This document shows positions 33,938 to 50,822 of a stretch of DNA of 64,000 nucleotides, one piece after another (positions within the stretch are counted from its first letter, which is position 1; every line of letters begins with the position of its first letter). The notes under the pieces are model-generated. The model was not told the DNA's origin. It ran no database searches and saw only the letters and a program-made list of their open reading frames with translations. Origin of the DNA: Rhizobium sp. Leaf262 (GTDB taxonomy: Bacteria; Pseudomonadota; Alphaproteobacteria; Rhizobiales; Rhizobiaceae); the NCBI RefSeq assembly GCF_001422245.1, contig NZ_LMMM01000018.1, positions 63,088 through 127,087 on the forward strand, written 5' to 3'. The position numbers were made by a program, and so were the translations under genes.

Positions 33938-34030
33938 CAGCCGGGCCTTTCAATAACCAACGAGACATGAAGCCGCGCGCCTTCGTCAAAATGGCAGCGA
34001 CGGCTTCACCCGACAGGGGAAAATCTGTCC

Positions 34031-35548
34031 ATGAGCACATTTGAATTTCTTCTGCATGGTCTTGAGGTTGCAGCGCAACCCATGAACCTGCTTTACGCGC
34101 TGATCGGCGTCACGCTCGGCACCGCCGTCGGCGTTTTGCCCGGCATCGGCCCTGCGCTGACGGTGGCACTGCTGCTGCCGGTCACCTACAGGCTCGACCC
34201 TGCCGGTTCGCTCATCATGTTCGCCGGTATCTATTACGGCGGCATGTATGGCGGCTCGACGACATCGATCCTTCTGAACACGCCAGGCGAAAGTGCGTCT
34301 ATCGTCACTGCGCTGGAGGGCAACAAGATGGCCCGTGCCGGACGCGGCGGCCCCGCACTGGCGACGGCTGCCATCGGCTCCTTCGTCGCAGGCCTGATTG
34401 CCACGATCGCGCTCGCCTTCGTCGCACCCTACATCGTCAAGCTGGCGCTGGTCTTCGGCCCACGCGAATATTTCGCACTGATGGTGCTGGCCTTCGTCAC
34501 GGTGTCGTCGGCATTCGGCGATTCTGCTCTTCGCGGATTGACATCCCTGTTCATCGGCTTTGCTCTCGCCATTGTCGGCATCGACCAGCTGACCGGCCAG
34601 ACACGCATGAGCTTCGGCATTCCCGATCTGCTTGACGGCGTTGAAGTGACCACGCTTGCCGTTGCCATGTTCGCCATCGGTGAAACACTGTTCATCGTTG
34701 CTCAGGGCCAGAGCGGGCCTGACAAGGTGGAAGCCGTCAAGGGCTCCGTCTGGATGACCGCTCAGGACTGGGCACGCTCGTGGAAAGCCTGGCTGCGCGG
34801 CACGCTCATCGGCTTCCCCATCGGCGCAATGCCGGCAGGCGGCGCTGAAATCGGCACGTTCCTGTCCTACGCGACGGAAAAGAAGCTGTCCAAGCACCCG
34901 GAAGAATTCGGCCACGGCGCCATCGAAGGCGTTGCCGGTCCGGAAGCGGCCAACAACGCATCTGCTGCCGGTACACTGGTACCACTGCTGACGCTGGGCC
35001 TGCCGACGACAGCAACCGCTGCCATCATGCTGGCCGGTTTCCAGCAGTTCGGCCTTCAGCCCGGCCCGCTTCTGTTTGCGACAAACCCGCAGCTCGTCTG
35101 GGGCCTGATTGCCAGCCTGTTCATCGCCAACGTCATGCTGCTGGTTCTCAACCTGCCGCTGATCGGCCTTTGGGTTAAGCTGCTGACCATTCCCAAGCCA
35201 TGGCTCTATGCGGGCATCTTGCTGTTTGCAACGCTCGGCACCATCGGCGCCAACCCATCCGTTTTCGAACTGGGCATGCTTCTGGCCTTCGGTATTCTCG
35301 GCTATATCATGCGCATCTTTGGCTATCCGATTGCACCTGCTGTGGTCGGTCTCATCCTCGGGCCATTGGCGGAACAACAGTTGCGCCGTGCATTGTCCAT
35401 CGGACAGGGCGACCCAACCGTGCTCTTCACGTCGCCTATCGCCGTCGGCCTGTTCATCGTTGCCGCTGCCGCATTCCTCATTCCACTGATCATGCGAATC
35501 CGTGGCCGTGGACAGGTGCTGACCCAGCTTGCGGCCAACGAAGACTAA
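34031..35548 (+). CDS. tctA: Tricarboxylate transporter large subunit TctA
   Basis: A 505-residue membrane protein with about 12 helices. It has the TctA signatures [47 protein letters not shown] and [12 protein letters not shown]. It forms the translocation path. The tctCBA order is normal. A terminator lies 32 bp after the stop. Confidence 0.95.
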
Positions 35549-35579
35549 AAGCTCTTACGACTTCCTCCCAAGGAAACCT

Positions 35580-35612
35580 GCCCCGCACCCGAAAGGATGC
35601 GGGGCTTTTTTA
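35580..35612 (+). terminator. Terminator after tctA
   Basis: Arms GCCCCGCA / TGCGGGGC around a 10-nt loop with a T6 run. Confidence 0.85.
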
Positions 35613-35616
35613 TGCC

Positions 35617-35641
35617 GGAACGGAACGCGGACATCGCCGTT
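35617..35641 (+). promoter_or_regulatory. Sigma-EcfG promoter of the small lipoprotein gene
   Basis: GGAAC (35617-35621), 16 bp, CGTT (35638-35641): an exact match to the general-stress sigma consensus, 34 bp before the gene's start codon. Confidence 0.7.
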
Positions 35642-35674
35642 TCCGCTGCATGGATTGCGTTATTGGGGAATGAG

Positions 35675-35935
35675 ATGCGTAAACTTGCTTTGATATTCGC
35701 CGTCGCCTTGGCGTCATGCACCACCGCGCAAGGTGTGGAGCCCATACCCGGCAGCATAACCTATGGCGGCCAGCCGAGAACGAAACTCACGAAATCACCG
35801 GTGGGAAGCACATTCAGCCACGATTTCACCATGTCCGATGGACGTCTTGCCCTGGAAACCTATCGCATAGAGCCGGACCGGTCACTCACTCTCATCGACC
35901 GCCGGATCGTCAGCGATTTCCCATCGGATAGGTAG
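35675..35935 (+). CDS. Small lipoprotein behind an EcfG promoter
   Basis: An 86-residue protein with a lipoprotein signal ending A-L-A-S-C-T-T. The mature part has [18 protein letters not shown] and [16 protein letters not shown] 35675 starts the signal. The family is unknown, but an exact sigma-EcfG promoter and the dps neighbour (also EcfG-type) suggest a stress-induced envelope role. Confidence 0.7.
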
Positions 35936-35968
35936 AAGGCATTACGCGCTTTGCCAGCGATGGATGAT

Positions 35969-35993
35969 GGAACGACTGTCGCGCCAACTCGTT
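35969..35993 (+). promoter_or_regulatory. Sigma-EcfG promoter of dps
   Basis: GGAAC (35969-35973), 16 bp, CGTT (35990-35993): an exact match, 52 bp before the dps start codon. Confidence 0.72.
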
Positions 35994-36044
35994 GTTTTCC
36001 CGCGTGTTTCGAAAACCCTAGATCGATGTTTCAGGAGAAATGAA

Positions 36045-36533
36045 ATGAGAACCCATAAGACAAGAAACGATTTGCCGTCCAACACCAAAGCCACAGTCAT
36101 CGGACTGTTGAACGAAGCCCTCGCTTCCGTCATCGACCTTTCACTCGTCACCAAGCAGGCGCACTGGAACCTCAAGGGCCCCCAATTCATCGCAGTCCAC
36201 GAATTGCTGGATACCTTCCGCGCACAGCTCGACAAGCATAGCGACACGATTGCAGAGCGCGCCGTCCAACTCGGCGGAACTGCACTGGGCAGCGTCCAGT
36301 CGGTCGGCTCGACCTCAAAGCTGAAAGCTTATCCCACCGACATCTACAGGATTCAGGATCATCTCGACGAGTTGATCGAACGCTACGGCGATGTGGCAAA
36401 TCTGGTTCGCAAATCCATCGATGAAGCAGACGATGCCGGCGATGCCAACACGGCTGACATCTTTACTGCGGCCTCACGCGACCTCGACAAATCGCTATGG
36501 TTCCTGGAAGCACATGTCCAGGAAAAAGCCTGA
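36045..36533 (+). CDS. dps: Dps family DNA-binding ferritin
   Basis: A 162-residue Dps protein. The ferroxidase motif [22 protein letters not shown] is complete and [12 protein letters not shown] follows. It oxidises and stores iron in a 12-mer and protects DNA from peroxide. AGGAG is 8 nt before ATG 36045; the frame extending to 35964 is not conserved. Its promoter matches sigma-EcfG exactly, and a terminator follows. Confidence 0.96.
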
Positions 36534-36542
36534 CACAAAACA

Positions 36543-36570
36543 AAAGCGCCCGGCGAAAACCGGGCGCTTT
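36543..36570. terminator. Terminator after dps
   Basis: Perfect 11-bp arms AAAGCGCCCGG / CCGGGCGCTTT with a 6-nt loop; it can serve the converging small gene too. Confidence 0.82.
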
Positions 36571-36587
36571 CACGTCAATATCATCCG

Positions 36588-36809
36588 TCAGTGGCGGCGC
36601 AAAACCGCCTTGCCAATGTCCCTCAGCATTTCATGATCAAGAATGCCGCGCTGGGCGCTTCTGATCAGAACAGCTGCACATTCATTGGCGACATGGCTGC
36701 TTCGATCTTCGAGGCACTCGAAACATACGCCATCGAATATCGTTTGAAGATCGGTAACCTGCTGGGGCGACAGCTGTGTGCCTACCCGTTGAAACGCTAC
36801 GTACGACAA
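36588..36809 (-). CDS. Small hypothetical protein
   Basis: A 73-residue protein with helical, charged sequence (V-G-T-Q-L-S-P-Q-Q-V-T-D-L-Q-T-I-F-D-G-V-C and I-L-D-H-E-M-L-R-D-I-G-K-A-V-L). It converges on dps across a shared terminator. There is no signal or membrane segment and no family is recognised, but composition fits a real small rhizobial cytoplasmic protein. Confidence 0.5.
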   Translation of the reverse strand: MSYVAFQRVGTQLSPQQVTDLQTIFDGVCFECLEDRSSHVANECAAVLIRSAQRGILDHEMLRDIGKAVLRRH

Positions 36810-36928
36810 GGCTCATCCTCCCAAAGATGCGAATTATCGGTACCCAATTCCGTGAATGGGTTTGTTTTACACCTGATCGAATCACATGTCGAATCAGATT
36901 TTAACGAATTTTCAACGATTATTTTCTT

Positions 36929-36954
36929 GGAACCGCAGGCAGTGGCCAGCCGTT
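36929..36954 (+). promoter_or_regulatory. Sigma-EcfG promoter of csbD
   Basis: GGAAC (36929-36933), 17 bp, CGTT (36951-36954): an exact match with the 17-bp spacer variant, 30 bp before the start codon. Confidence 0.72.
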
Positions 36955-36983
36955 ACTTCTTTGTCACAACGAGGAGAATAGAC

Positions 36984-37187
36984 ATGGACTGGAACCGCGT
37001 AGAAGGCAACTGGAAGCAGGTCAAAGGCAAGATCAAGGAACAGTGGGGAAAACTCACAGATGACGATCTTGATCAAATCGCTGGCAAGCGCGAGCAGCTC
37101 GAAGGCAAGATCCAGGAGCGTTACGGCGTCGAAAAAGACCATGTCCGCAAAGACGTCGACACATGGTATGATCGCCAGACCTGGTAA
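36984..37187 (+). CDS. CsbD family stress protein
   Basis: A 67-residue CsbD-like protein (M-D-W-N-R-V-E-G-N-W-K-Q-V-K-G-K-I-K-E-Q-W-G-K-L-T-D). The family is small, very hydrophilic and induced by general stress in many bacteria; the mechanism is not known. GAGGAG lies 7 nt before the ATG, and an exact sigma-EcfG promoter is upstream. A terminator follows. The longer in-frame extension to 36591 has no support. Confidence 0.9.
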   Translation: MDWNRVEGNWKQVKGKIKEQWGKLTDDDLDQIAGKREQLEGKIQERYGVEKDHVRKDVDTWYDRQTW

Positions 37188-37211
37188 CGGGTCACCAAAG
37201 CAGAATTCACG

Positions 37212-37240
37212 AAAATGCCCGCGAGATGCGGGCATTTTTT
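37212..37240 (+). terminator. Terminator after csbD
   Basis: Perfect 11-bp arms AAAATGCCCGC / GCGGGCATTTT with a T-run. Confidence 0.88.
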
Positions 37241-37263
37241 CGGGCGTCCGTCAGAAAGTCCGA

Positions 37264-37638
37264 TCAGCAAGCCACCAGAAGGCCGACATCCGCCAACGCC
37301 TTTTCGATCAGGTCGGGCGAAACCGGTTTTGTCAGAAAAATCGCACCCGGCGGCAAAACACCTTCAGCGGGATTGTATCGACCCGAAATCACCACCACCC
37401 TGATATCCGGCCACCGGCGATGCGCGACATTGGCAAGGCCCAGTCCGTTGATGGAACCCGGCATGTCGATATCGGTCAGGATAGCCTGAATAGGCTCTTC
37501 CGTTTCCAGCACTTCGACCGCCTCATCGGCAGTGGAAGCCTCCTGCACGGTAAAGCCGAGGTCGGACACCATATCGACGAGATCGAGACGAATAAGTCCG
37601 TCATCTTCGACGATAAGAAGGCGTGGTTGCGATTGCAT
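37264..37638 (-). CDS. Single-domain response regulator
   Basis: A 124-residue stand-alone receiver: E-D-D acidic pocket (R-L-L-I-V-E-D-D), phosphoacceptor D in A-I-L-T-D-I-D-M-P-G, and the T-K-P-V lysine near 105. There is no output domain. It starts 3 bp after the HWE kinase stop, so it is that kinase's likely partner, and may carry phosphate to PhyR or act as a phosphate sink. It converges on csbD. Confidence 0.88.
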   Translation of the reverse strand: MQSQPRLLIVEDDGLIRLDLVDMVSDLGFTVQEASTADEAVEVLETEEPIQAILTDIDMPGSINGLGLANVAHRRWPDIRVVVISGRYNPAEGVLPPGAIFLTKPVSPDLIEKALADVGLLVAC

Positions 37639-37641
37639 CAG

Positions 37642-39105
37642 TCAATGCTCCTGCTGAAAGCTGGAAAGGTCTGCCGAGATCGTGCAGCGCAAGCCACCGG
37701 CATCGTAGGAAATGTCGACACGACTGTCGGCGGCGCCAGCAAGACCGGCTTTGATAAGACGAGAACCGGAACCGACGCGTTGCGGCATGGCAACCGACGG
37801 CCCTCCTGTTTCGGTCCAGACGAGTTCGAATCTGTGTGCGGCTTGACCCACGACGTGCCAACGAATGTCGACGCGCCCGTCAGGCACCGACAAGGCACCA
37901 TATTTCACCGCATTCGTTGCGAGCTCGTGGAGGATCAGCGACAAAGACAGGGAGGGCCGCGACCCAACTCGCATATTAGGCCCCGCGACGGTAAAGCGCG
38001 AGGACATCGGATCATCGTGAACTTCCAGCATCTGATTGACGAGCTTATGTACCTGCGAGGTGCCGAGCCCGCCCTGAATGACCGTGTCATGCGCCGCGCT
38101 TAACACGCCGATGCGGGCCGACAGGGTCTTGCGCGCTGTGTCCAGATCATCCGCCGAGCGCAGCGTCTGCGATGCGATTGCCTGCACCATGGCGAGCTGG
38201 TTCTTCAGCCGGTGACCGAGCTCGTGGGAAATGAGCTCCCGGTGCTTCTGTTCCGCCAGACGTTCCGTCACATCCTGCGCCTGCACCAGAATGCCGGTGA
38301 TTTCGCCGGATGGGTCACGCATGGCCTGATAGACGAGATCGATCATGCGCTTCTGCTTTTCGCCTTCCGGTCCGCGGTTGAGCTCTACAGGCACGCCACG
38401 CGCAGCAAACGGCTCGCCGGTTCTGTAGACGGCGTCGAGAAGATCGATGAAGCCCTGCCCCACGACCTCGGAAACCGCCTCGGCCACCGACCGTCCAATG
38501 ATGTCGCGACCAACACCGATCATCGAATAATATTCTTCGTTGGCGAATTCGAAAACGTGATTGGGGCCGCTCAATGTGGCAATACCCGCTGGCGACATCT
38601 CGAAAATCTGCAGCAGCTTCTCCTGCATGCTCTTCTGTTCGCGTCGCATGATGATTTCACTGGTAATTTCCGTACATGCGCAGAACATTCCAAGGACCAC
38701 GCCGGACTGATCGCGGACTGGAGTGTAGGAAAACGAAAAGTGCGTTTCCTCGGGGTATCCCTTGCGGTGCATGATGAACTGAATGTCGTCCATCGACGTA
38801 CCCTGACCAGCGTAGGCGGCAGAGATGATAGGATCGACAGCATCCCAGATATCGAACCACAAATCACGAAACGGATGTCCAAAGGCGGCAGGATGGCGGT
38901 TGCCGCACATCTGCGCATAACCATCATTATAAAGCGTAATCTGTTGCGGTCCCCAGACGATCAGCATCGGCTGAAGTGAACCCAGCATCACATTGACAAG
39001 CGTCTGGAGTTCCACGGGCCACGCGTCGGGACAGCCTAACGGGCTTTCTTCCCAGGCAAAACCCCGGAACAAATCTCCGCATTCACCGCCGCCTACAAAA
39101 TTCAA
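37642..39105 (-). CDS. PAS-PAS HWE-family histidine kinase
   Basis: A cytoplasmic kinase of about 487 residues. The first PAS (~35-155) has L-Y-N-D-G-Y-A-Q-M-C-G and the second (~165-290) has F-A-N-E-E-Y-Y-S-M-I-G. The HWE kinase core is S-H-E-L-G-H-R-L-K-N-Q-L-A-M-V-Q, then H-E-L-A-T-N-A-V-K-Y-G-A-L and F-E-L-V-W-T-E-T-G-G, the W-x-E motif that names the family. HWE kinases often feed the PhyR/NepR/EcfG general stress pathway. TTG 39105 is preferred because GGGG lies upstream; a TTG at 39141 is in frame too. There are no membrane segments. Confidence 0.9.
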   Translation of the reverse strand: MNFVGGGECGDLFRGFAWEESPLGCPDAWPVELQTLVNVMLGSLQPMLIVWGPQQITLYNDGYAQMCGNRHPAAFGHPFRDLWFDIWDAVDPIISAAYAGQGTSMDDIQFIMHRKGYPEETHFSFSYTPVRDQSGVVLGMFCACTEITSEIIMRREQKSMQEKLLQIFEMSPAGIATLSGPNHVFEFANEEYYSMIGVGRDIIGRSVAEAVSEVVGQGFIDLLDAVYRTGEPFAARGVPVELNRGPEGEKQKRMIDLVYQAMRDPSGEITGILVQAQDVTERLAEQKHRELISHELGHRLKNQLAMVQAIASQTLRSADDLDTARKTLSARIGVLSAAHDTVIQGGLGTSQVHKLVNQMLEVHDDPMSSRFTVAGPNMRVGSRPSLSLSLILHELATNAVKYGALSVPDGRVDIRWHVVGQAAHRFELVWTETGGPSVAMPQRVGSGSRLIKAGLAGAADSRVDISYDAGGLRCTISADLSSFQQEH

Positions 39106-39139
39106 AACTGTCCCCGTACGTCCAACGCCCTGGCATCTC

Positions 39140-39164
39140 AACTAGGTCGGCTTGATTTGGTTCC
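39140..39164 (-). promoter_or_regulatory. Near-EcfG promoter of the HWE kinase
   Basis: Minus strand GGAAC (39164-39160), 16 bp, AGTT (39143-39140), one mismatch at the first -10 base. It fits a start codon at 39105 but not at 39141. Confidence 0.45.
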
Positions 39165-39289
39165 ATGACAAAACGCAACAAAAATCGCAGCCCAAAGAAG
39201 GTCACCGCGACACTCGATTTCTAGCCAGAAACACCATCTCGCACTTCCATTAGAAGAAAAGCAGGGTGAAATTTAAATATCACTAATTT

Positions 39290-39314
39290 GGAACGAATGC
39301 TCCCTCGCACAGTT
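39290..39314 (+). promoter_or_regulatory. Near-EcfG promoter of the PepSY-like gene
   Basis: GGAAC (39290-39294), 16 bp, AGTT (39311-39314). Same -10 variant as the kinase promoter, 51 bp before the start codon. Confidence 0.45.
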
Positions 39315-39364
39315 TGGGATGCACGGAGCTGTCAAAAAAGCGGCCCGCATAAGAGGAAATCACC

Positions 39365-39685
39365 ATGAAGAAGATCATTCTTGCGGCGGCGCTGCTGAGC
39401 GCCACTGCCTTGTCCGCTGCTGCCCAGACATCTGCTCCTGCAACCAGCACAGATGGCAACACACCCGCTGTCGCAACGCCGGAAACGAAAAACCCGACGG
39501 CGCCGGTCGAAGGTGCAAACAGCTTCACCGAAGAGCAGGCCAAGACCCGCATCGAAGAAGCCGGTTATTCCGAGGTCAAGGATCTCAAGAAGGATGACAA
39601 GGGTATCTGGATGGCCTCCGGCATGAAGGATGGCAAGCCTGCCATGATCGCTCTGGATTACCAGGGCAATGTCGTCGCCAAGTAA
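39365..39685 (+). CDS. Secreted PepSY-like small protein
   Basis: A 106-residue protein. The signal peptide is M-K-K-I-I-L-A-A-A-L-L-S-A-T-A-L-S-A-A-A. A Thr/Pro-rich linker precedes a ~50-residue fold with A-K-T-R-I-E-E-A-G-Y-S-E-V-K-D-L-K-K-D-D-K and W-M-A-S-G-M-K-D-G-K, a pattern like short PepSY or YpmB-type domains. It is probably periplasmic. It is followed after 45 bp by the glycine-zipper stress protein, likely as one operon, behind a near-EcfG promoter. Confidence 0.75.
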   Translation: MKKIILAAALLSATALSAAAQTSAPATSTDGNTPAVATPETKNPTAPVEGANSFTEEQAKTRIEEAGYSEVKDLKKDDKGIWMASGMKDGKPAMIALDYQGNVVAK

Positions 39686-39730
39686 CGCGACCACTGCCAA
39701 GCGACGCAACCGAATTTTGAGGATAACGAT

Positions 39731-40336
39731 ATGAAAACCATTACTGGACTTTTCGACGACCATGCTGATGCCCGGTCTGCTGTGACCGAACTGGAAGCCG
39801 CAGGCGTTCCGTCCAAGGACATCAGCATCGTGTCGAACAACGCAAACCACCGCGACCGCGCAGATGAATCCAAAGCAGCCGAAGGCGCTGGAACCGGCGC
39901 AGGCATCGGTGCCGTCGTCGGCGGTGCTGGCGGTCTTCTGACGGGGCTTGGCCTTATGGCTATCCCGGGTGTCGGCCCTGTCGTGGCAGCCGGCTGGCTT
40001 GCCGCAACCGCGGCAGGAGCAGCAGCAGGCGCTGTCGCTGGCGGCGCAGCAGGCGGTATCGTCGGCGCGCTGACGGATTCCGGCGTCTCTGAAGAAGACG
40101 CGCATGTCTATGCAGAAGGCGTACGCCGTGGCGGCACCATCGTCACTGCAAAGGTGGAAGACAGCATGGCACCGGAAGCGGAAGCCATTCTCAAGCGGTC
40201 CAACTGGGTCGATCCCACGGAACGCCGTACAGCCTATAATGAACAGGGCTGGCAGCGTTTCGATGACACGCTCGATCCTTATGATGCCGACCAGATCGAA
40301 AAAGAGCGCACACGCTACAACCGCCCTGCGCTCTGA
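39731..40336 (+). CDS. Glycine-zipper general-stress-like protein
   Basis: A 201-residue protein. The N-terminal part (M-K-T-I-T-G-L-F-D-D-H-A-D-A-R-S-A-V-T-E-L-E-A-A-G-V) matches the general stress protein 17M-like domain. The middle (~55-120) is a glycine/alanine-rich glycine zipper that may insert in a membrane, and the polar tail ends Y-N-R-P-A-L. The function is unknown, but the family and position fit stress induction. No own EcfG motif was seen; it is probably cotranscribed with the gene before it. Confidence 0.78.
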   Translation: MKTITGLFDDHADARSAVTELEAAGVPSKDISIVSNNANHRDRADESKAAEGAGTGAGIGAVVGGAGGLLTGLGLMAIPGVGPVVAAGWLAATAAGAAAGAVAGGAAGGIVGALTDSGVSEEDAHVYAEGVRRGGTIVTAKVEDSMAPEAEAILKRSNWVDPTERRTAYNEQGWQRFDDTLDPYDADQIEKERTRYNRPAL

Positions 40337-40468
40337 CATCCGGTGACCGGCACGCGACGATGGCAACGACTGGCGACATCAGAGCACGCAACGCCTTGTC
40401 CTCATGGCAGAGCGTAACGTGTGACGGACCGTCCAAGTCGAGCATCGAAGCGATGTGACCATGATTGA

Positions 40469-40495
40469 GGCCGCCTGTTTCGGGCGGCCCTTTTT
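40469..40495 (+). terminator. Terminator upstream of katE
   Basis: Arms GGCCGCC / GGCGGCC with a 7-nt loop and a following T-run, 133 bp after the stress protein stop. Confidence 0.7.
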
Positions 40496-40548
40496 CTTTG
40501 CGGGCCGTGTAGGCTCGTTTCAAATCGAATAGATCTGGGAGATCGGGC

Positions 40549-42696
<2,148 letters not shown>

Positions 42697-42709
42697 AGTA
42701 AATGAAATG

Positions 42710-42736
42710 AAGCGCGGCACGTAGTGTCGCGCTTTT
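42710..42736 (+). terminator. Terminator after katE
   Basis: Arms AGCGCGGCAC / GTGTCGCGCT (one mismatch) with a T5 run. The next gene starts only 31 bp later. Confidence 0.72.
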
Positions 42737-42767
42737 TCACGCATGACCGGTGTTATGGGGACATTTC

Positions 42768-43919
42768 ATGGTGCAGCCTTCCACGCCCAGACGGATCGTC
42801 GTCATCAGCGATTTTCAGGATGGCGATGGTTTTGCGCCTGATGTCCCACCCGTCGAAGAATTCGAACGACAATGGCGAAGCGGTGAACGCGGCCAACCGC
42901 TTCAGCACACAGTGAACACCGACGATTTTAAAGTGGAAGGTGGCTACATAGAAAGGCTGCCCCTCGCCTGCATCAAGGCGGGTCTTGTCGATACGGCAGA
43001 AGTCTGGACCCACTGGCGCAACGAAAGCCCCCCACCGCCGGATGAACGGCAAGCTCCTGTCATGATCCGCCGGGCGTTTCAGATGAACGCGCCACAGCCA
43101 CCGTTCAGCTCCAACGATATGCTGGGGCATATCAACGCCTTCGGCGCGCCCGATATACTGTGCGTGTGGGGCCTCGGGGTCGACGAGGCCATCCTTAGCG
43201 CCTGCGAAAAATCCTATAAAATATATAATTCCATCGATCATCCGGCGCTTCGCATACCACCTGACGCCAGCAGGCACTTCGACCTCATCATCACCGGCGC
43301 GGAATGGCAGTCACGGGAGGTGAGAGATCGACACCCCGACATGAAGACAGCGATCATGCCCATCGGCCCGGAATTCGCGTCTGATACCACCTTCTACCCG
43401 ATCGACAGCGAAAAGCCGTACGACATCATCTATGTCGCGGCGGCACAGGCTTATAAACGCCACGACATTCTTTTCGACGCGCTGGCCAAACTTCCTCGGT
43501 CGATCCGTACGCTCTGCGTATTCGGATATGGCGAACTCAGCGACGAACTGCGGGCGCGAGCGCGAAACCTCCGGATCGACGTCGATTTCGTTGGCCCTCC
43601 CGGCGTCCCCTTCGCTGAGGTCAACCGTTTGATGAATCTCGCAAAAATCGGAGTCGTTTGCGGTGTACAGGATGGCGCGCCAGCCATTTTGACCGAATAT
43701 ATGCTGGCCGGTCTACCTGTCCTCGCAAACAGCGAACTCAGCTGCGGCCTGCAATATATCACGCCGCAAACCGGTCTGATGGCATCGGCAGCGCAGTTCC
43801 ACGACGGTATTCTGGCCATGCTGGACAGAGCCTCAACCTTGGCTCCGAGACAGGTGGTGCTGGATCACTGGACATGGCCACACACGGTCGAAAAACTACG
43901 TTTGCTCATGCGAACTTGA
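42768..43919 (+). CDS. Glycosyltransferase (GT-B, GT1/GT4-like)
   Basis: A 383-residue GT-B protein. The N-terminal half is unusual for the family. The C-terminal nucleotide-sugar domain has Y-D-I-I-Y-V-A-A-A-Q-A-Y-K-R-H-D-I-L-F-D-A-L and G-A-P-A-I-L-T-E-Y-M-L-A-G-L-P-V-L-A-N, with the conserved E. It has no signal or TM and is cytosolic. It starts 31 bp after the katE terminator, so it may use read-through or a promoter there. The next transferase follows after 83 bp, with its own candidate promoter. ATG 42768 is preferred to 42750. Confidence 0.8.
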   Translation: MVQPSTPRRIVVISDFQDGDGFAPDVPPVEEFERQWRSGERGQPLQHTVNTDDFKVEGGYIERLPLACIKAGLVDTAEVWTHWRNESPPPPDERQAPVMIRRAFQMNAPQPPFSSNDMLGHINAFGAPDILCVWGLGVDEAILSACEKSYKIYNSIDHPALRIPPDASRHFDLIITGAEWQSREVRDRHPDMKTAIMPIGPEFASDTTFYPIDSEKPYDIIYVAAAQAYKRHDILFDALAKLPRSIRTLCVFGYGELSDELRARARNLRIDVDFVGPPGVPFAEVNRLMNLAKIGVVCGVQDGAPAILTEYMLAGLPVLANSELSCGLQYITPQTGLMASAAQFHDGILAMLDRASTLAPRQVVLDHWTWPHTVEKLRLLMRT

Positions 43920-43946
43920 TAACATTCGAAAGTTTTTTAATAATCA

Positions 43947-43971
43947 GGAACAAAGCCACTTTCATCCGGTT
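43947..43971 (+). promoter_or_regulatory. Near-EcfG promoter before the fusion operon
   Basis: GGAAC (43947-43951), 16 bp, GGTT (43968-43971); GTT is kept and only the first -10 base differs. It lies 32 bp before ATG 44003. Confidence 0.5.
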
Positions 43972-44002
43972 TGGGAGCGCCCTCTCAAACGCGGATCCGC
44001 CA

Positions 44003-45259
44003 ATGAATCTCTCCAGTTCGATTTCCTCGCCTTTACATATCGCAGCAGAGCGCAAAACGCCGCTCATCTGTTTTTCACATCTGCGATGGGATTTCGTTCT
44101 GCAGCGCCCGCAGCATCTGATGGAGCGTTTTGCAAGAGAACGTGCGGTGTTCTTTTTCGAGGAATATATCCCGACAGATCATCATCTGGCCTATCTTGAA
44201 ATCCACCCGTTTGAAGGCACCACCGTCAAATCCGTGCGCCCGCGCGTGCCGCATTGGTGGGGCGAAGCGGAAAGAGAGCGGGCGCTTGCCCGATTGCTGG
44301 ACGATCTTCTGGCCATGTATGGCGCAGCCCGCCCCATCCTGTGGTTCTATACGCCAAGCATGTTCAGCTTTGCAGGCCATGTCGATGCCTCGGCGGTCGT
44401 CTATGACTGCATGGACGAACTGGCGAATTTCAAATTTGCGCCACAGCATATGAGAGAGATGGAGGCGGCACTGATGGCACGGGCCGACGTCGTCTTTACC
44501 GGCGGCTACAGTCTCTATGAGGCAAAGTGCCATCAGCACGACAATATCCATCCCTTCCCTTCGGGCGTGGATGTCGCCCATTTTCACTCGACCCGGAAAA
44601 ACCGGCAGGAACCGGCTGAGCAACTGTCGATAGCAGGCCCTAAACTCGGCTATTACGGGGTCATCGACGAGCGTCTCGATCTGGCCCTGCTGGAGACGGT
44701 TGCGAAGGCCAGACCGCAATTTTCATTCGTCATGATCGGACCGGTCGCCAAAATTGCACCGGAAGATTTGCCGAAAGCGGATAATATCCATTATCTCGGC
44801 CAGAAGCATTATGGCGATTTGCCCGCCTACCTCTCGGGCTGGGACGTGGCGCTCATGCCCTTTGCGCTCAACAGCGCCACACAATTCATCAGCCCCACAA
44901 AGACACCCGAATATCTCGCATCGGGACGCCCGGTAGTCAGCACACCCATTGCCGATGTCGTTCGCCATTATGGTGATGTCGACGGCGTCTTCGTTGCGGC
45001 AGATGCGGATGCCTTCGCAAAGGCCTGCGATGCGGCAATGGCCCTTCGCGACACGAATGCCGACTGGCTTGTGCCGGTGGACGCCATGCTGGAGGGAGCG
45101 TCGTGGGACAAGACGTTTTCCGCGATGAAGGCGTTGATGGATGCTGCGGTTCTGGACAACACCTATCCCACAGTTCCCATATCCAAGGTTCTGGCAAAAC
45201 CGCCCATTCAGCCTGCTGCATTGAGCCGCGGTGACACTGCAGCCGTCACCAGCCTATGA
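44003..45259 (+). CDS. TuaH-like glycosyltransferase
   Basis: A 418-residue GT-B glycosyltransferase. The N-terminal motif L-I-C-F-S-H-L-R-W-D-F-V-L-Q-R-P-Q-H-L-M-E-R resembles TuaH-type transferases of teichuronic acid and polysaccharide clusters. V-V-Y-D-C-M-D-E-L-A and the C-terminal K-T-P-E-Y-L-A-S-G-R-P-V-V-S-T donor-binding motif are intact. ATG 44003 is used; the frame opens at 43658 but overlaps the previous gene. Its stop overlaps the fusion gene by 4 bp (ATGA), so all three downstream proteins are translationally coupled. Confidence 0.85.
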   Translation: MNLSSSISSPLHIAAERKTPLICFSHLRWDFVLQRPQHLMERFARERAVFFFEEYIPTDHHLAYLEIHPFEGTTVKSVRPRVPHWWGEAERERALARLLDDLLAMYGAARPILWFYTPSMFSFAGHVDASAVVYDCMDELANFKFAPQHMREMEAALMARADVVFTGGYSLYEAKCHQHDNIHPFPSGVDVAHFHSTRKNRQEPAEQLSIAGPKLGYYGVIDERLDLALLETVAKARPQFSFVMIGPVAKIAPEDLPKADNIHYLGQKHYGDLPAYLSGWDVALMPFALNSATQFISPTKTPEYLASGRPVVSTPIADVVRHYGDVDGVFVAADADAFAKACDAAMALRDTNADWLVPVDAMLEGASWDKTFSAMKALMDAAVLDNTYPTVPISKVLAKPPIQPAALSRGDTAAVTSL

Positions 45260-48200
45260 TCAGCCAGCGACACCGCATCGTTCTCGCGACCGATAGTCTC
45301 GATCCATCCGGCATGGGTGAACACATGCTGACCCTGGCCGTTACACTGGGCAACGATTGGGACATCACGATTGCAAGCCCCGTCGGCAACGCATCGGACC
45401 TCATGACCAGAGCCGCAAGCCTCGGCCTTTCAGTAAAGACCTATGACGATACGGCATCCTTTGCAGGCTGGCTGAAAACGTCGGGCGTGTCTCTGCTGCA
45501 CGTTCACGCTGGCATTGGCTGGGAAGGTCATGAGGTCGCAAAAGCCGGCATCGCCTGCGGCATCCCCGTCATTCGCACGGAACACCTCCCCTATCTTCTG
45601 ACGGACGAAGATCAGAAGCGGCATTATGCCCGCGAATGCGCAAAACTTGCCCATCGCATCGTCGTCTCCGCAGATTCCAGGGCAAGTTTCGAAGCCAATG
45701 ATGTCAGCGCTGAAGACCTTACTCTTGTTCGAAACGGGATAATTGCCTTGCAGCCGTCGCCCGCTGCCAATCCCGACATCCTGACCGGTCTCGATGACAG
45801 GAAAATATTGATCACCGTTGCCAGATTTTCCCGTCAGAAAGATCACACCACGCTGATCCAGGCGCTCCCGGCCATCCTTGCCGCTCATCCTTCCGTCCTG
45901 CTGCTTCTCGTCGGCAAGGGCGATGAAATAGGGAGGATCGGCGCTTTGGTAGAAACTTTGTCTCTCCAGAACCACGTTATTTTTGCCGGACAGCGCAGCG
46001 ACATCGCCGATCTGATGGCAAAGGCCGATGCGTTCGTGCTGCCCTCGCAATTCGAGGGCCTGCCTATCGCCGTGCTGGAGGCCATGTCGATTGGTTTGCC
46101 CGTGGTTGCGACGCGGATTGGCGGCACTCTCGAAGCGTTGGGAGCTGACCACCCGTACCTCGCGAAATGCGCAGACCCGGCATCCCTGTCCGCCACCGTT
46201 ATCGCCGCGCTTGATGACGAGGCAAAAGCAAGGGCGGTTGGACAAATTGGACGCAAACGATTTGAGACCGAGTTTTCAGCGCAACGCATGGCCAGCGAAA
46301 CTGCCGCCGTCTACGGCCGCGTGCTGTCTACGTCTACCCAGGCTACCATGACACAAGGACATGTTTCCATGAACAAGGCACGTATCGGCTTTATTGGCGT
46401 CGGCGGCATTGCCAATCGGCATCTCGACATTCTGGCCGGTTTCGACGATGTCGAGCTGGTGGCCTTTGCAGACCCTGATTTCGCTCGTGCGGAACAGGCC
46501 GCCTTTCGGTTCGGTGCAAAGGCCTTCGACAATCACCGCGCCATGCTGGACCAGCAGGCTCTCGATGCCGTCTATATCTGCATCCCACCCTTCGCGCATG
46601 GAGATGCCGAGCGGGATTTGATCCGGCGTGGCATCCCCTTTTTCGTCGAAAAACCCATCACGCTGGATCTTGCCCTTGCAGAAGAGCTGAGTAATGCCAT
46701 CGAGACCGCCGGGCTGATCACCGGCGTGGGCTATCACTGGCGATATCTCGATACGGTGGATGAGGCCCGCACTCGTCTGGCCGACAATCCCGCCCAGCTC
46801 CTGTCCGGCTACTGGCTGGACCAGACCCCTCCCCCGCAATGGTGGTGGAAGACGGACGGATCGGGTGGACAGATGGTAGAGCAGGCTACCCATATCATTG
46901 ATCTGGCCCGATACCTCGTCGGCGAGATTAAAGACGTTTATGGCCGCGTCGGCTTCCGCGAACGACCCGAATTTCCGGGTCTCGACGTTCCCGCCGTAAC
47001 CACCGCCAGCCTGACCTTCCAGTCCGGCGTCATCGCCACTATTTCCTCCACCTGCCTGCTGGGCTGGAGCCACCGGGTGGGGCTCAACATTTTCGCGGAT
47101 CGGTTGGCCATTGAGTTGACCGATCACGACATCATGGTCGATGTCGGCGCGGGACGGCCCGTGCGCCATGCCGAAGGCGATCCCGTCTGGCGGGAAGATC
47201 GCGATTTTATCGACGCTGTCAGCGGCGGCGAAAACCACATTCGCTGCACCTATCAGGATGCGCTGGCAACCCACCGGGTGGCGCTTGCGGTCGCCACCTC
47301 TGCCCGGGAAGGTCAACCGGTGCGGCTGGAAGAGCCTGCCGTGCGGCGCAACTCTCCCGCACCTTTGCGGCATTTGCCTCGCGTGGAAGAACCGCAAGGT
47401 CTTTCCCCCGGCCACCGCATCATCCATTCACTCGGCATTGAAGCGCCGGGGCGAGCATACTTGTTCGACTATGAAGAAGGCCCGCCCGGCGATGGTCAGG
47501 TTCGGCTGGAAACGCTCTATACCGGCTTTTCCGCCGGTACCGAATTGACCTTCATGAAAAACACCAACCCCTATTTCCATTCACGCTTCGATGGCGGGCG
47601 CGGTGTTTTCATTGAAAACGATCCGGACCTTCACTATCCCGTTCCCTTTCTTGGCTACATGGAAGTGGCACGCGTTTCGGAATCGCGCGCCGCCGGTTTT
47701 GCCCAGGGCGACATCATCGCCGGGACCTACGGACACAAAAGCGGACACACTGCGGACCCCTTTCATGACGTGATGCTGCCGCTGCCGCAGGATATCGATC
47801 CGGTGTTGGGTGTGCTGGTGGCCCAGATGGGACCGATTGCCGCCAATGGCATTCTGCATGCGGATTCCGACGCGCTCGGCGCACAGGCACCTTCGTTCGG
47901 CGCAGGCATTGCGGGTCGCAATGTCATCGTCATTGGTTCCGGCACCGTGGGGTTGATGACAGCCCTTTTTGCGCAAAATGCTGGAGCATTGGACGTTGTC
48001 CTTGCCGATCCCTCGGCGTTTCGGCGGCAAAAGGCCCATGCGATGGGTATTACGGCCATGACCGAAGCGGATGCATGGCAGCATGCCAAGGCGCGCTGGC
48101 ACAATGGCGGCAGTGACCGCGGCGCAGATATCGTTTTCCAGACCCGCGCCCACGCCGAAAGCCTTCATACGGCGTTGAAAGCTTTGCGCCCTCAAGGAAC

Positions 48201-48504
48201 GGTCATCGACCTCGCTTTCTATCAGGGAGGCGCAGATCATTTGAGGCTCGGAGAAGAGTTTCACCACAACGGGCTCAACATCCGCTGCGCCCAGATCAAC
48301 CGCGTCCCTCGCGGCATGTCGGACCAATGGAACAGACGTCGCCTCGCGCAGGAAACCGTCAGCCTGCTTGAAAGCCATGGCAAGATCATTCGCCAGGAGA
48401 TGATCACCCACATCGTTCCGCTTCGTGATGGTCCCGCCTTCCTTGCCGATCTGGTGACCAACAGGCCGGAATTTCTTCAGATCGTTTTCAAGGCCGACGA
48501 ATGA
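45256..48504 (+). CDS. Trifunctional fusion: GT4 + Gfo/Idh/MocA + MDR dehydrogenase
   Basis: A 1082-residue protein with three enzymes. Residues ~1-360 are a GT4 transferase (L-I-T-V-A-R-F-S-R-Q-K-D-H, F-E-G-L-P-I-A-V-L-E-A-M-S). Residues ~372-720 are a Gfo/Idh/MocA sugar oxidoreductase (I-G-F-I-G-V-G-G-I-A-N-R-H, F-V-E-K-P-I-T, G-V-G-Y-H-W-R-Y). Residues ~724-1082 are an MDR dehydrogenase (F-S-A-G-T-E, V-I-V-I-G-S-G-T-V-G-L-M), but the usual catalytic zinc Cys is replaced by the S-A-G-T-E loop. The first junction looks like an old start: M372 has AAGGA about 11 nt upstream. It is coupled by 4 bp to genes on both sides. Activities are inferred from motifs; the substrate is unknown. Confidence 0.85.
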   Translation: MISQRHRIVLATDSLDPSGMGEHMLTLAVTLGNDWDITIASPVGNASDLMTRAASLGLSVKTYDDTASFAGWLKTSGVSLLHVHAGIGWEGHEVAKAGIACGIPVIRTEHLPYLLTDEDQKRHYARECAKLAHRIVVSADSRASFEANDVSAEDLTLVRNGIIALQPSPAANPDILTGLDDRKILITVARFSRQKDHTTLIQALPAILAAHPSVLLLLVGKGDEIGRIGALVETLSLQNHVIFAGQRSDIADLMAKADAFVLPSQFEGLPIAVLEAMSIGLPVVATRIGGTLEALGADHPYLAKCADPASLSATVIAALDDEAKARAVGQIGRKRFETEFSAQRMASETAAVYGRVLSTSTQATMTQGHVSMNKARIGFIGVGGIANRHLDILAGFDDVELVAFADPDFARAEQAAFRFGAKAFDNHRAMLDQQALDAVYICIPPFAHGDAERDLIRRGIPFFVEKPITLDLALAEELSNAIETAGLITGVGYHWRYLDTVDEARTRLADNPAQLLSGYWLDQTPPPQWWWKTDGSGGQMVEQATHIIDLARYLVGEIKDVYGRVGFRERPEFPGLDVPAVTTASLTFQSGVIATISSTCLLGWSHRVGLNIFADRLAIELTDHDIMVDVGAGRPVRHAEGDPVWREDRDFIDAVSGGENHIRCTYQDALATHRVALAVATSAREGQPVRLEEPAVRRNSPAPLRHLPRVEEPQGLSPGHRIIHSLGIEAPGRAYLFDYEEGPPGDGQVRLETLYTGFSAGTELTFMKNTNPYFHSRFDGGRGVFIENDPDLHYPVPFLGYMEVARVSESRAAGFAQGDIIAGTYGHKSGHTADPFHDVMLPLPQDIDPVLGVLVAQMGPIAANGILHADSDALGAQAPSFGAGIAGRNVIVIGSGTVGLMTALFAQNAGALDVVLADPSAFRRQKAHAMGITAMTEADAWQHAKARWHNGGSDRGADIVFQTRAHAESLHTALKALRPQGTVIDLAFYQGGADHLRLGEEFHHNGLNIRCAQINRVPRGMSDQWNRRRLAQETVSLLESHGKIIRQEMITHIVPLRDGPAFLADLVTNRPEFLQIVFKADE

Positions 48505-50744
48505 TAGAGCAGCAACCGCCCATCCGCATTCTCTTCGTTTTTGCCTGGCTTGTGGTCGGTGGTGAGGAAACGGAAGTTCGGCACTTGGCTCGCAACCTCG
48601 ACCGCAGCCGGTACCGTCTGGATGTCGTGGTCTGTTTCCACAAGGAAAACATGCCACACCAGACCCACGATCAGTTGCGCGACCTGGGCGTGGACGTCGA
48701 CACCACCCCTTACACTCTGTCTTTCGAAGACACGGTCGCCTATCTCTCCAACACGATAGCGGCCTACGACGTCGTCGTTTCCTGCCAGAACGTCGCGGAT
48801 ATCTATCCCGCACTGGAGCGTATGCACTGGCGTCCTCCGCTCATCGAACATGGCGGACTGGTGTCTGAAGCTCTGGCCGGGCCGAAGCACCACACCAGCC
48901 GTTATGTGGGCGTCTGCCGCTCCATCCGCGACGCCGCAGCCAGTGTCATGCCGGGCCGGGAAAGCGACGCCATCGAAATCCCCTCGATGGTGGATATCGC
49001 CGAATTTGATGGCAGTGCCCGCGATGCCACACGCGCGTCCCTCGGCGTTACCGGAGAGAGCATGCTGGTCGGCTGGGTCGGCAGGCTCGATCCGAAAAAG
49101 AACGTCGAAGACTTCATCGAGGCTGCAGCACACGTCCATATCAACAATCCGGACACCCGTTTCGTCATCATCGGTGGCCCGGACGCTTTCCTGCCGGACT
49201 ATGCCGTCGCCCTTCGCAACCTCGTAAGGGAAAGACGTCTCGACAATGTCCTGACATTCCTCGGAGACCGCAAGGACATTCCCGCTCTCCTGTCGGCTCT
49301 GGATATCTTCGTCTGGCTGTCGAAGGGTGAAGGAATGCCCCACGTCATCGCCGAAGCGGGCGCTGCCGGTCTGCCTGTCATTGCCACGCCTGACAATGGC
49401 GCCGCCCAGCAGATAGAGGATGGCACAACCGGCATCTTCGTGCCCTATCACGACCCGGTCTGCGTGGCAGCCGCGATCGAAAGACTGAGCGCCTCCGCCG
49501 AGTTGCGCAGCAGGCTGGGGCTGGCGCTGCGCCAAAAAGTGGTATCGACCTACAGCGTAAATGCCATCGTGCCGCAGTGGGAGCGGCTCATCCATAACGT
49601 CATCAGGGAAAGACAGTCGGCAAAGCCGACAGGCATTTTCCAATCGTTTCTTCAGGGCGGTTTCGAATGTTCCACCCACCGCCTTCGCCCGCGTGACTGC
49701 GAGAGCCGGGGAAAGCGGCTGGATGTCATCGCTGCAACGGGGCACGACCGCCACGCTGTAGAAGATTATCGCCAGCTTGCCACGCACTCTATCACCACCG
49801 TCCGGGATGGATTGCGCTGGTATCTGATCGAGACGACACCGGGCCATTACGACTGGTCCAGCTTCACCCCAATGCTGAAAGCCGCATGCGATACGGGAAC
49901 GCAGGTCATCTGGGATTTGCTGCATTACGGCTGGCCTGATGATATCGACATATGGTCCCCTCAATTCGTCAAACGCTTCGCCCGCTTTGCCGCTGCCGCC
50001 GCACAGCTGGTGAAAGACCAGACCGACGCCATCCCCTTTTATTCGCCCGTCAATGAAATCTCGTTCTTCTCATGGGGCGGTGGGGATGCTGCCTATCTCA
50101 ACCCCTTCGCCCATGGCCGGGGTTTTGAGTTGAAAGTGCAACTGGCCCACGCAGCCATAGCCGCCATGGATGCCATTCTCGACGTCGAACCGAGAGCGCG
50201 CTTCGTCCATTGCGACCCCGTCATCAACGTCATCACCGACCCCTCCCGCCCATGGGAGAGAGGCGTGGCCGAAGGCCACCGCCAATCGCAATTTCAGGGC
50301 TGGGATCTGCTTGCTGGCCGCATGTGGCCGCAGATCGGCGGTGCCGATAAATATCTCGATATCGTCGGCGTCAACTACTACCACAACAACCAATGGATCC
50401 ACGGCGGCCCACCCATCGACATGGACCACCCACTCTACAAACCCTTCCGAACCATCCTCACCGAAACATACGCCCGCTACGGCAAACCCATCTTCATCGC
50501 CGAAACCGGCATAGAAGGCGAGCGCCGCGCCAGCTGGATGTCCTACATCCACCAGGAAGTCACCGCCGCCATGAAACAGGGCGTACCAATAGAAGGCATC
50601 TGCCTCTACCCCATCGTCAACCACCCCGGCTGGGATGACGACCGCGCCTGTGAGAATGGATTGTTGTCAGCAAGGTTTGCTAACGGCAAACGGGATGTTT
50701 ACGAGCCGTTGTCGGATGTTTTGAAAGTGTATTCCGAGAGATAA
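48501..50744 (+). CDS. Fusion: GT4 glycosyltransferase + GH-A (GH1-like) glycosidase
   Basis: A 747-residue bifunctional protein. Residues ~1-375 are GT4 (V-G-W-V-G-R-L-D-P-K-K-N, K-G-E-G-M-P-H-V-I-A-E-A). Residues ~380-745 are a TIM-barrel glycosidase of clan GH-A, closest in look to GH1: acid/base E519 in Y-S-P-V-N-E-I-S-F, nucleophile E668 in F-I-A-E-T-G. There is no signal peptide, so hydrolysis or transglycosylation would be cytosolic. It is coupled by 4 bp to the trifunctional gene and ends 1 bp before the 3' end of a converging tRNA gene. Function is unknown. Confidence 0.85.
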   Translation: MIEQQPPIRILFVFAWLVVGGEETEVRHLARNLDRSRYRLDVVVCFHKENMPHQTHDQLRDLGVDVDTTPYTLSFEDTVAYLSNTIAAYDVVVSCQNVADIYPALERMHWRPPLIEHGGLVSEALAGPKHHTSRYVGVCRSIRDAAASVMPGRESDAIEIPSMVDIAEFDGSARDATRASLGVTGESMLVGWVGRLDPKKNVEDFIEAAAHVHINNPDTRFVIIGGPDAFLPDYAVALRNLVRERRLDNVLTFLGDRKDIPALLSALDIFVWLSKGEGMPHVIAEAGAAGLPVIATPDNGAAQQIEDGTTGIFVPYHDPVCVAAAIERLSASAELRSRLGLALRQKVVSTYSVNAIVPQWERLIHNVIRERQSAKPTGIFQSFLQGGFECSTHRLRPRDCESRGKRLDVIAATGHDRHAVEDYRQLATHSITTVRDGLRWYLIETTPGHYDWSSFTPMLKAACDTGTQVIWDLLHYGWPDDIDIWSPQFVKRFARFAAAAAQLVKDQTDAIPFYSPVNEISFFSWGGGDAAYLNPFAHGRGFELKVQLAHAAIAAMDAILDVEPRARFVHCDPVINVITDPSRPWERGVAEGHRQSQFQGWDLLAGRMWPQIGGADKYLDIVGVNYYHNNQWIHGGPPIDMDHPLYKPFRTILTETYARYGKPIFIAETGIEGERRASWMSYIHQEVTAAMKQGVPIEGICLYPIVNHPGWDDDRACENGLLSARFANGKRDVYEPLSDVLKVYSER

Positions 50745-50745
50745 G

Positions 50746-50822
50746 TGGTAGCGGGAGAGGGACTTGAACCCCCGACACGCGGATTATGATTCCGCTGCTC
50801 TAACCACCTGAGCTACCCCGCC
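50746..50822 (-). tRNA. tRNA-Met (CAT), probably elongator
   Basis: A 77-nt cloverleaf on the minus strand. The anticodon loop A-T-C-A-T-A-A sits between GCGGA and TCCGC, giving anticodon CAT. The T arm has GGGGG-TTCAAGT-CCCTC, and CCA is encoded at the 3' end (50748-50746). The first pair is G-U. The lack of the three-GC initiator stem argues against fMet; a lysidine-type Ile(CAT) is less likely but cannot be excluded. Confidence 0.93.

Follow-up and report, generated by a model that had tools for sequence, protein, structure and literature searches.

Galactofuranose (Galf) is known mostly from the cell surfaces of pathogens, as set out in the cited part of PMC3624792, and the same part treats the uridine diphosphate (UDP)-galactopyranose mutase (UGM, or Glf) of Deinococcus radiodurans as a prokaryotic UGM. 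For glycosidase family GH1, the cited excerpt on the Streptomyces griseus enzyme SGR_2426 names Gln29, His123, Asn167, Tyr267, Gln363 and Trp364 as subsite -1 residues (PMC12369401). The promoter motif of the general stress sigma factor EcfG is given in the cited excerpts as GGAAC-N16-CGTT for Rhizobium etli (PMC3892343) and GGAAC-N17-20-GTT for Sphingomonas melonis (PMC6599016). Here we describe a cluster of glycosyltransferase (GT) genes from Rhizobium sp. Leaf262, situated in a stretch of 64,000 nucleotides (contig NZ_LMMM01000018.1, positions 63,088 to 127,087, forward strand; hereafter the window). Whether the locus represents the rhizobial version of a stress-induced pathway for a small Galf-type glycoconjugate is, in our judgement, an evenly balanced question. 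The GT domains are labelled gtD, gtA, gtB and gtC in gene order, labels that belong to the present analysis, and the features of the locus are as follows.

39731..40336, + strand: gene for a YflT-domain general stress protein (PF11181, 2.6e-09), left flank of the block
40549..42696, + strand: catalase of the HPII/KatE type, 715 aa (Pfam Catalase, 1.6e-178), upstream of the GT genes
42750..43919, + strand: gtD, stand-alone GT-B glycosyltransferase (PF00534, 3e-11), 83 bp upstream of gtA
43947..43971, + strand: GGAAC-N16-GGTT, a promoter motif of the EcfG type; 31 bp separate it from the gtA start codon
44003..45259, + strand: gtA, GT-B glycosyltransferase, 418 aa (PF13692 over cut-off), no Glf domain here
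45256..46329, + strand: gtB, GT4-like domain, gene 2 residues 1-358 (PF00534, 2.1e-35; EX7E at 267)
46372..47370, + strand: Gfo/Idh/MocA oxidoreductase domain, gene 2 residues 373-705 (PF01408, 2.4e-27; EKP at 465)
47410..48504, + strand: MDR (alcohol-dehydrogenase-like) domain, gene 2 residues 719-1082 (PF00107, 4.8e-13)
48501..49616, + strand: gtC, GT4-like domain, gene 3 (PF00534, 2.1e-30; EX7E at 277)
49617..50744, + strand: divergent GH1-fold glycosidase domain, gene 3 (profile match, model fold, conserved glutamates)
50746..50822, - strand: tRNA-Met, right flank of the block

The three open reading frames (ORFs) 44003-45259, 45256-48504 and 48501-50744 are joined by 4-bp ATGA overlaps at both junctions, and the first of them is nested in a longer ORF (43658-45259). 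According to Pfam, gene 1 encodes a GT (PF13692), gene 2 a GT followed by GFO_IDH_MocA and ADH_zinc_N domains, and gene 3 a GT. These ORFs, overlaps and domains had been described in an earlier note made from the letters of this DNA, and all were confirmed; the gene list of that note was incomplete, in that the fourth GT, the catalase, the promoter motif, the Glf of relatives and the core found in distant taxa had been overlooked. Its statement that the chains have no signal peptide holds to the extent that none is evident, as judged from hydrophobicity (19-residue Kyte-Doolittle means) and not by a predictor. The highest means were 1.06, 1.93 and 1.26 for genes 1, 2 and 3, respectively; the stretch with 1.93 begins at residue 201 of gene 2, inside its GT domain, and gene 3 opens with the stretch that gives 1.26. 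Both gtB and gtC fit GT family 4, with PF00534 over cut-off and EX7E present, while gtA has a GT-B fold resembling GT4 entries and two chance EX7E strings situated elsewhere.

A scan of 84,980 species genomes with an alignment of the glycosidase returned at least 549 related stretches, of which the best 80 loci were kept and examined together with the window (81 loci). Because the 80 are the best-scoring of at least 549, the locus counts lean towards close relatives, and relatedness among loci is uncorrected; a script assigned fused and separate states from the coordinates of the matches and the positions of stops. Of the 81 loci, 61 share the order gtD-gtA(-glf)-gtB-gfo-mdr-gtC-gh, and both window fusions are exactly reproduced in 37; in 33 of these, the end of the MDR gene and the start of gtC share 4 bp, as in the window. 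gtC and the glycosidase are fused in 67 of the 70 loci with both, gtB and Gfo in 55/66, and Gfo and MDR in 39/66, with gfo and mdr being separate genes in the other 27 of the 66 loci that have both. Domains that form one chain here are encoded by adjacent single genes in other loci, which means that the fusions link steps of a single pathway. gtA was found in 75/81 loci; the remaining six have the glycosidase on a short contig or close to the end of a contig.

Assembly error was considered as the source of the fusions and rejected, both being intact in 37/81 loci; the domain order and gene order, for which the earlier note had proposed a check in relatives, do recur. Its picture of one coupled, probably cytosolic sugar-assembly unit is supported as well by the neighbouring genes of other loci, and its remark that no system with such an architecture has been described holds for the open-licence papers searched, in which no description of the cluster was found. 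The cluster is no speciality of Agrobacterium: it occurs in Rhizobium, Sinorhizobium, Devosia, Sphingomonas and Paracoccus, and its core in Deinococcota, Cyanobacteria and Bacteroidota. In samples that include the window's own genome and were drawn evenly over sub-groups, so that they are not natural frequencies, the full-length GT-glycosidase fusion is present in 14 of 37 genomes of the genus, and the glycosidase domain in 29/297 genomes of the family, 4/385 of the class and 13/398 of the phylum. The cluster is real, conserved and widespread and, going by the open literature searched, apparently undescribed; it combines known parts in a way that is both new and conserved.

gtA, Glf and the glycosidase persist where gtB, MDR and gtC are undetected, namely in Stutzerimonas, cyanobacteria, Azospirillum, Skermanella, Mesorhizobium, Deinococcus, Comamonas and Chryseobacterium. 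In 10 plasmid loci, picked by hand among the 60 listed of 117 records, gtA is present in 10/10 and Glf (E <= 1e-4) in 7/10. The cross-phylum core thus consists of the GT-B transferase gtA, Glf and the GH1-like glycosidase, in at least four phyla and on chromosomes as well as plasmids. No orthologues of the Gfo and MDR domains were detected in these distant clusters, the Gfo matches near L104 (a Devosia metagenome-assembled genome) and L123 (Deinococcus actinosclerus) being weak (26% identity). The neighbours of the core vary with the lineage. In Stutzerimonas, Azospirillum and Skermanella an ABC exporter directly follows the glycosidase, and genome G040 has one alongside; the ABC genes adjoining the core in loci L114 and L039 are of the exporter type (ABC_membrane + ABC_tran). 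Moreover, galT and/or galK lie beside the core in four cyanobacterial loci and in Methylomagnum, where GH2 is found too.

Some single loci show arrangements of their own. The Methylomagnum plasmid (L128:2392-10143) carries a gtA-flavoprotein fusion, GH2, galT, galK and the glycosidase in one run, which reads as a self-contained galactose supply. In the Pantoea soli plasmid (L125:8992-12720), the glycosidase, gtA and an amine-oxidase-type flavoprotein form a single chain of 1242 aa. Deinococcus sp. AJ005 (L122:8935-11298) has the glycosidase fused to an acyl-CoA dehydrogenase-type domain, near Dps genes, a catalase and another GH1-type gene. Beside the core of Deinococcus actinosclerus (L123:4155-6594), a GH1 gene and a separate gfo are adjacent on the opposite strand, in what may be a separate, independent combination of these two activities.

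The partner that is kept across phyla is the mutase. Glf is present in 58/81 loci, 45 times fused to gtA, 12 times as a separate gene and once without gtA in view; among the 75 loci with gtA, 57 accordingly have Glf and 18 have none in view. Among structures, the Glf of a Pararhizobium cluster (L021) has its best match in the UGM of D. radiodurans (3hdq), with 551.8 bits across 362 residues, followed by 1wam with 296.2 bits. In the window, gtA ends in a short tail (residues 390-418) that is predicted to be disordered, where the Glf domain would be, and the sole PF03275 match of the genome, G000:C12, lies outside the cluster. Glf has been lost in the window lineage, and a different Glf is kept elsewhere in the genome. 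A stand-alone Glf occurs in 14/14 genomes of the genus that have the cluster (12 with a Glf-less cluster, two with a fused one) and in 12/23 cluster-free genomes, among which the match of G010 is broken in two; the probability of this association is 0.0016, without phylogenetic correction and among related genomes. This distribution fits a supply of Glf in trans without proving it. Agrobacterium phage Atu_ph04 is reported, in the cited part of PMC6630229, to encode a UDP-galactopyranose mutase, and Galf may therefore matter in the phage-host relations of Agrobacterium.

In rhizobia, control of the cluster by EcfG is strongly suggested by the promoter motif and its position. A strict motif (GGAAC-N16/18-[CG]GTT) and a loose one (GGAAC-N18/19-TT) were sought in the 150 nt upstream of gtA in 75 loci, with distances measured to the start of the protein match instead of the start codon and expected counts derived from the loci as a whole. 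The strict motif was found in 21/75 loci (expected 0.6), with 18 sites at 51-56 nt, and the loose motif in 40/75 (expected 1.4), with 33 at 51-56 nt. Elsewhere in the cluster the strict motif precedes gtB in 0/66, gtC in 1/70 and gtD in 5/63 cases. Across loci the spacer letters vary, and the motif ends and the distance are constant. The 33 loci with the loose motif at this distance are nearly all rhizobial, and taxon groups taken from record titles place the loose motif in 25/27 Rhizobiaceae loci. A chance match was rejected, shuffles giving an expectation of 0.66 against 33/93 found (redundant set). Four further strict EcfG-like motifs (GGAAC-N16/17-CGTT) lie in the window at 35617, 35969 and 36929 (+ strand) and 53623 (- strand). 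Gene #2499 of the S. melonis Fr1 EcfG table, a Zn-dependent alcohol dehydrogenase, was tried as a candidate for the MDR and rejected, its motif being unmatched in the loci at up to 5 mismatches; three of seven motifs of that table gave single matches with 4-5 mismatches, on which we make no claim.

Genes with a role in stress are also found around the cluster. A katE-like catalase, a frequent neighbour, is inside the locus in 11 of the 80 genome loci, in several arrangements. The genomes of 31 relatives have between 0 and 4 matches to the catalase family, with a mean of about one, so that a catalase would fall by chance in a 21-kb stretch in roughly 0.5% of cases, a rough estimate from relatives only, whose loci are not independent. 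Near 90 loci we counted Ku or LigD six times, Mn-catalase twice and Dps once, and Dps, Mn-catalase or Ku/LigD adjoin single plasmid clusters. As genomes of the genus hold 2 to 8 Ku matches each, the Ku neighbourhood carries no weight alone.

No Pfam match passes the cut-off in the C-terminal 375 residues of gene 3, and PF00232 is absent even at E <= 1. Nevertheless, a profile built from this domain finds GH1 enzymes among PDB entries (E 1.2e-09 for the best), and its AlphaFold2 model (predicted local distance difference test score 93.3) has the GH1 (beta/alpha)8 fold, with Z 36.7 and a root-mean-square deviation of 2.9 over 350 residues aligned to 1np2, and Z 35.1-36.7 over the 50 entries listed. 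Two glutamates, E147 (nt 50055-50057) and E296 (nt 50502-50504), are invariant in 46/46 glycosidase sequences; in alignments with GH1 chains they coincide with the NE and E-N-G motifs, which hold the acid/base and the nucleophile, respectively. The subsite -1 residues His103, Asn146, Tyr255 and Trp339 are kept in 46/46 sequences, and Glu17 and Gly338 are invariant in the same 46; opposite Gly338, printed alignments of other GH1 chains show Glu and once Asp. Since Gly338 and Glu17 (the latter placed by manual motif alignment) stand where GH1 enzymes usually have other residues, the substrate sugar is probably not an ordinary glucoside. Its fusion to a transferase and the lack of an evident signal peptide make a role during synthesis the most likely one.

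The oxidoreductase part of gene 2 is a member of the Gfo/Idh/MocA family, with PF01408 and the EKP motif at 465, which is identical in at least 95% of 60 rows. On inspection of the sequence, the catalytic zinc-ligand motifs of zinc-dependent alcohol dehydrogenases were not found in the N-terminal domain of the MDR, which has SAGTE and GYME at their places. The 14 PDB matches of the MDR have their best stretches beginning at residue 128 or later. As Gfo keeps EKP and the MDR is without the usual zinc motifs, the two domains likely carry out a redox step, or an isomerisation, on a sugar.

The cluster appears to lie in a movable block. It ends at tRNA-Met (50746-50822, - strand), next to a gene that reads like mnmA. 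Among 22 other genomes of the genus, 18 have no cluster beside tRNA-Met, with homology starting at 50736-50746, the 3' end of the tRNA, and the remaining four (G009, G016, G017 and G020) have the cluster near it. In one of the 18, G002 (L132), only about 185-205 bp separate the YflT gene from tRNA-Met, and both catalase and cluster are missing there. In the window, the space between the YflT gene and tRNA-Met holds a block of about 10.4 kb (40340-50822), made up of the catalase and the four GT genes; in the comparison with L132, this block as a whole is the unit that differs at the site. The catalase is thus probably part of the same acquired block as the cluster. The same run, YflT-catalase-gtD-gtA-gtB-gtC, is carried by a plasmid of A. 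larrymoorei (L023). A search of 33001-50740 for repeats of the tRNA 3' end showed none of 10 nt or longer.

From these parts a pathway can be proposed. In rhizobia, EcfG would turn on the three-gene operon under general stress. UDP-Galf formed by Glf would go to gtA, as the fusion and gene order suggest. The mutase reaction has an unfavourable equilibrium, which the single Glf-gtA chain of most relatives would pull, and here the mutase would have to act in trans. gtB, gtC and gtD would lengthen the glycan, Gfo and the zinc-less MDR would oxidise or reduce the sugar attached or handed on by gtB, and the GH1-like domain would trim or transglycosylate the glycan freshly made by gtC. In some lineages the product may be exported by the ABC exporter encoded beside the core, and it could serve in protection from stress. 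In Alphaproteobacteria, three further GTs and the Gfo/MDR pair would have joined the gtA-Glf-glycosidase core and been fused step by step. The product is probably a small glycoconjugate instead of a long polymer, as no polymerase or flippase is listed for three annotated loci, the tables of which are incomplete.

Several observations weigh against this pathway. There is no Glf among the cluster proteins of the window (42750-50744), and the stand-alone Glf of the genome is of another type (41% identity). It adjoins a gene that reads like an O-GlcNAc-transferase-type protein (L024:1393-3600) and thus sits in another glycosylation locus. On a quick tree of the glycosidase with many weak forks, which scores 73 loci, omits L078 and L084 (a stop inside the merged span) and has L077 as a long branch, Glf is absent in 18 of the 73 loci, the window included, and presence switches at least eight times, this being the minimum on the tree. 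Among the plasmid loci, Glf was not detected in L125 (Pantoea), L128 (Methylomagnum) and L129 (Paracoccus); an amine-oxidase-type flavoprotein occupies its place in the first two, and neither is present in L129. As to stress, 35/75 loci lack even the loose motif, which by record title precedes gtA in 0/14 sphingomonad and 0/5 Devosiaceae loci: a stress promoter for the whole cluster family was not borne out, and the gtA motif is a rhizobial feature. No such motif precedes the catalase (0/21) or YflT (0/17) genes in the redundant set; what links the catalase to the cluster is therefore its position and not a promoter of the same kind. Of the 90 loci, 21 have at least one of seven stress-marker queries nearby and 69 have none, and three of the 21 positive loci (L122, L124 and L129) were the source of the queries.

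The losses of Glf bear directly on a different account, in which Glf-less clusters such as this one have switched to a pyranose donor (UDP-galactose or other), so that the product of the window is no furanoside while that of its ancestors was. Given the loss and the at least eight changes, the pathway may use another donor here; gtA remains well conserved without Glf (82% identity to L040 and L042), so the pathway itself was retained. However, all 12 genomes of the genus with a Glf-less cluster carry another Glf gene, so that supply in trans is possible, and we consider the switch rather unlikely. A conventional cluster for surface polysaccharide (exopolysaccharide, capsule or lipopolysaccharide) would accord with the GT domains, which match exopolysaccharide, teichuronic acid and PEP-CTERM glycosyltransferase profiles below their cut-offs, and Glf is common in such clusters. 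Yet flippase, polymerase, chain-length and priming genes are not listed within 14 kb in three plasmid loci (the PLSDB tables are incomplete, and the neighbours in the window were only partly scanned), the core has just three proteins, and a glycosidase without evident signal peptide is fused to a GT; we regard such a cluster as unlikely.

A salvage or degradation unit, in which glycosidases free a sugar and the GTs are incidental, would explain why the core has GH2, galT and galK next to it in Methylomagnum, and why cyanobacterial loci hold GH2 and/or galT. Against it, a mutase and as many as four GTs point to biosynthesis, the gene list of L128, the single annotated locus with galT and galK, shows no sugar importer, and the ABC genes adjoining the core in L114 and L039 are of the exporter type, all of which leaves salvage highly improbable. 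The earlier note had guessed that Gfo and MDR form a 3-keto-glycoside intermediate towards a soluble stress glycoside. The intact Gfo domain with its EKP motif agrees with this, its PDB matches include a sugar 3-ketoreductase and DgpA, an enzyme of 3-keto chemistry, and the GT-B neighbours of the gtA model include enzymes of small glycosides, such as sucrose-phosphate synthase and MshA. However, the cluster genes include no glucoside-3-dehydrogenase, the position specificity of Gfo is not readable from sequence, the MDR is without the usual zinc-ligand motifs, and Gfo and MDR orthologues were not found in the distant clusters, where the partner is Glf; the guess thus finds no support beyond the Gfo family, and we hold it to be improbable.

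We return to the stress-induced Galf pathway. In its widest form, it would be an intracellular assembly line in at least four phyla that makes an undescribed Galf-type stress glycoconjugate, with a GH1-fold enzyme of altered pocket acting during synthesis, fusions in Alphaproteobacteria and stress control in rhizobia; this whole we advance only tentatively and as the less probable side of the question. If true, so wide a spread of a stress-linked Galf-type cluster, over bacteria of soil and plants, Deinococcus, cyanobacteria and Bacteroidota, would suggest that these organisms share a molecule that has no name so far. The putative link between Galf and stress is plausible. The recurring fusions offer a ready-made test of which steps are consecutive, and a GH1-like enzyme with an altered pocket poses a new substrate question.

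Compared with known systems, the GT domains have TuaH, TuaC, EpsE and PEP-CTERM glycosyltransferases (GT4-like) among their best NCBIfam matches and stay below the curated cut-offs, with 91.5 against 550 bits for gtA and TuaH and 129.1 against 409 for gtB and TIGR03088. The Glf domain of L021 is alike by sequence match to the D. radiodurans enzyme (3hdq) and the UGM family; unlike that family, Glf is fused behind a glycosyltransferase in 45/57 loci with both, and the window cluster is without it. The window motif (43947-43971) resembles those of the EcfG/RpoE2 general stress regulon and has a fixed place before gtA in rhizobial loci, whereas the base before GTT is G in 20/21 strict sites of the cluster and C in the R. 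etli motif. Lastly, the glycosidase shares the fold and catalytic glutamates of the GH1 family (beta-glucosidases, such as SGR_2426, PDB 8kap), while two of the six subsite -1 residues of SGR_2426 appear to be replaced, with Glu17 for Gln29 and Gly338 for Gln363.

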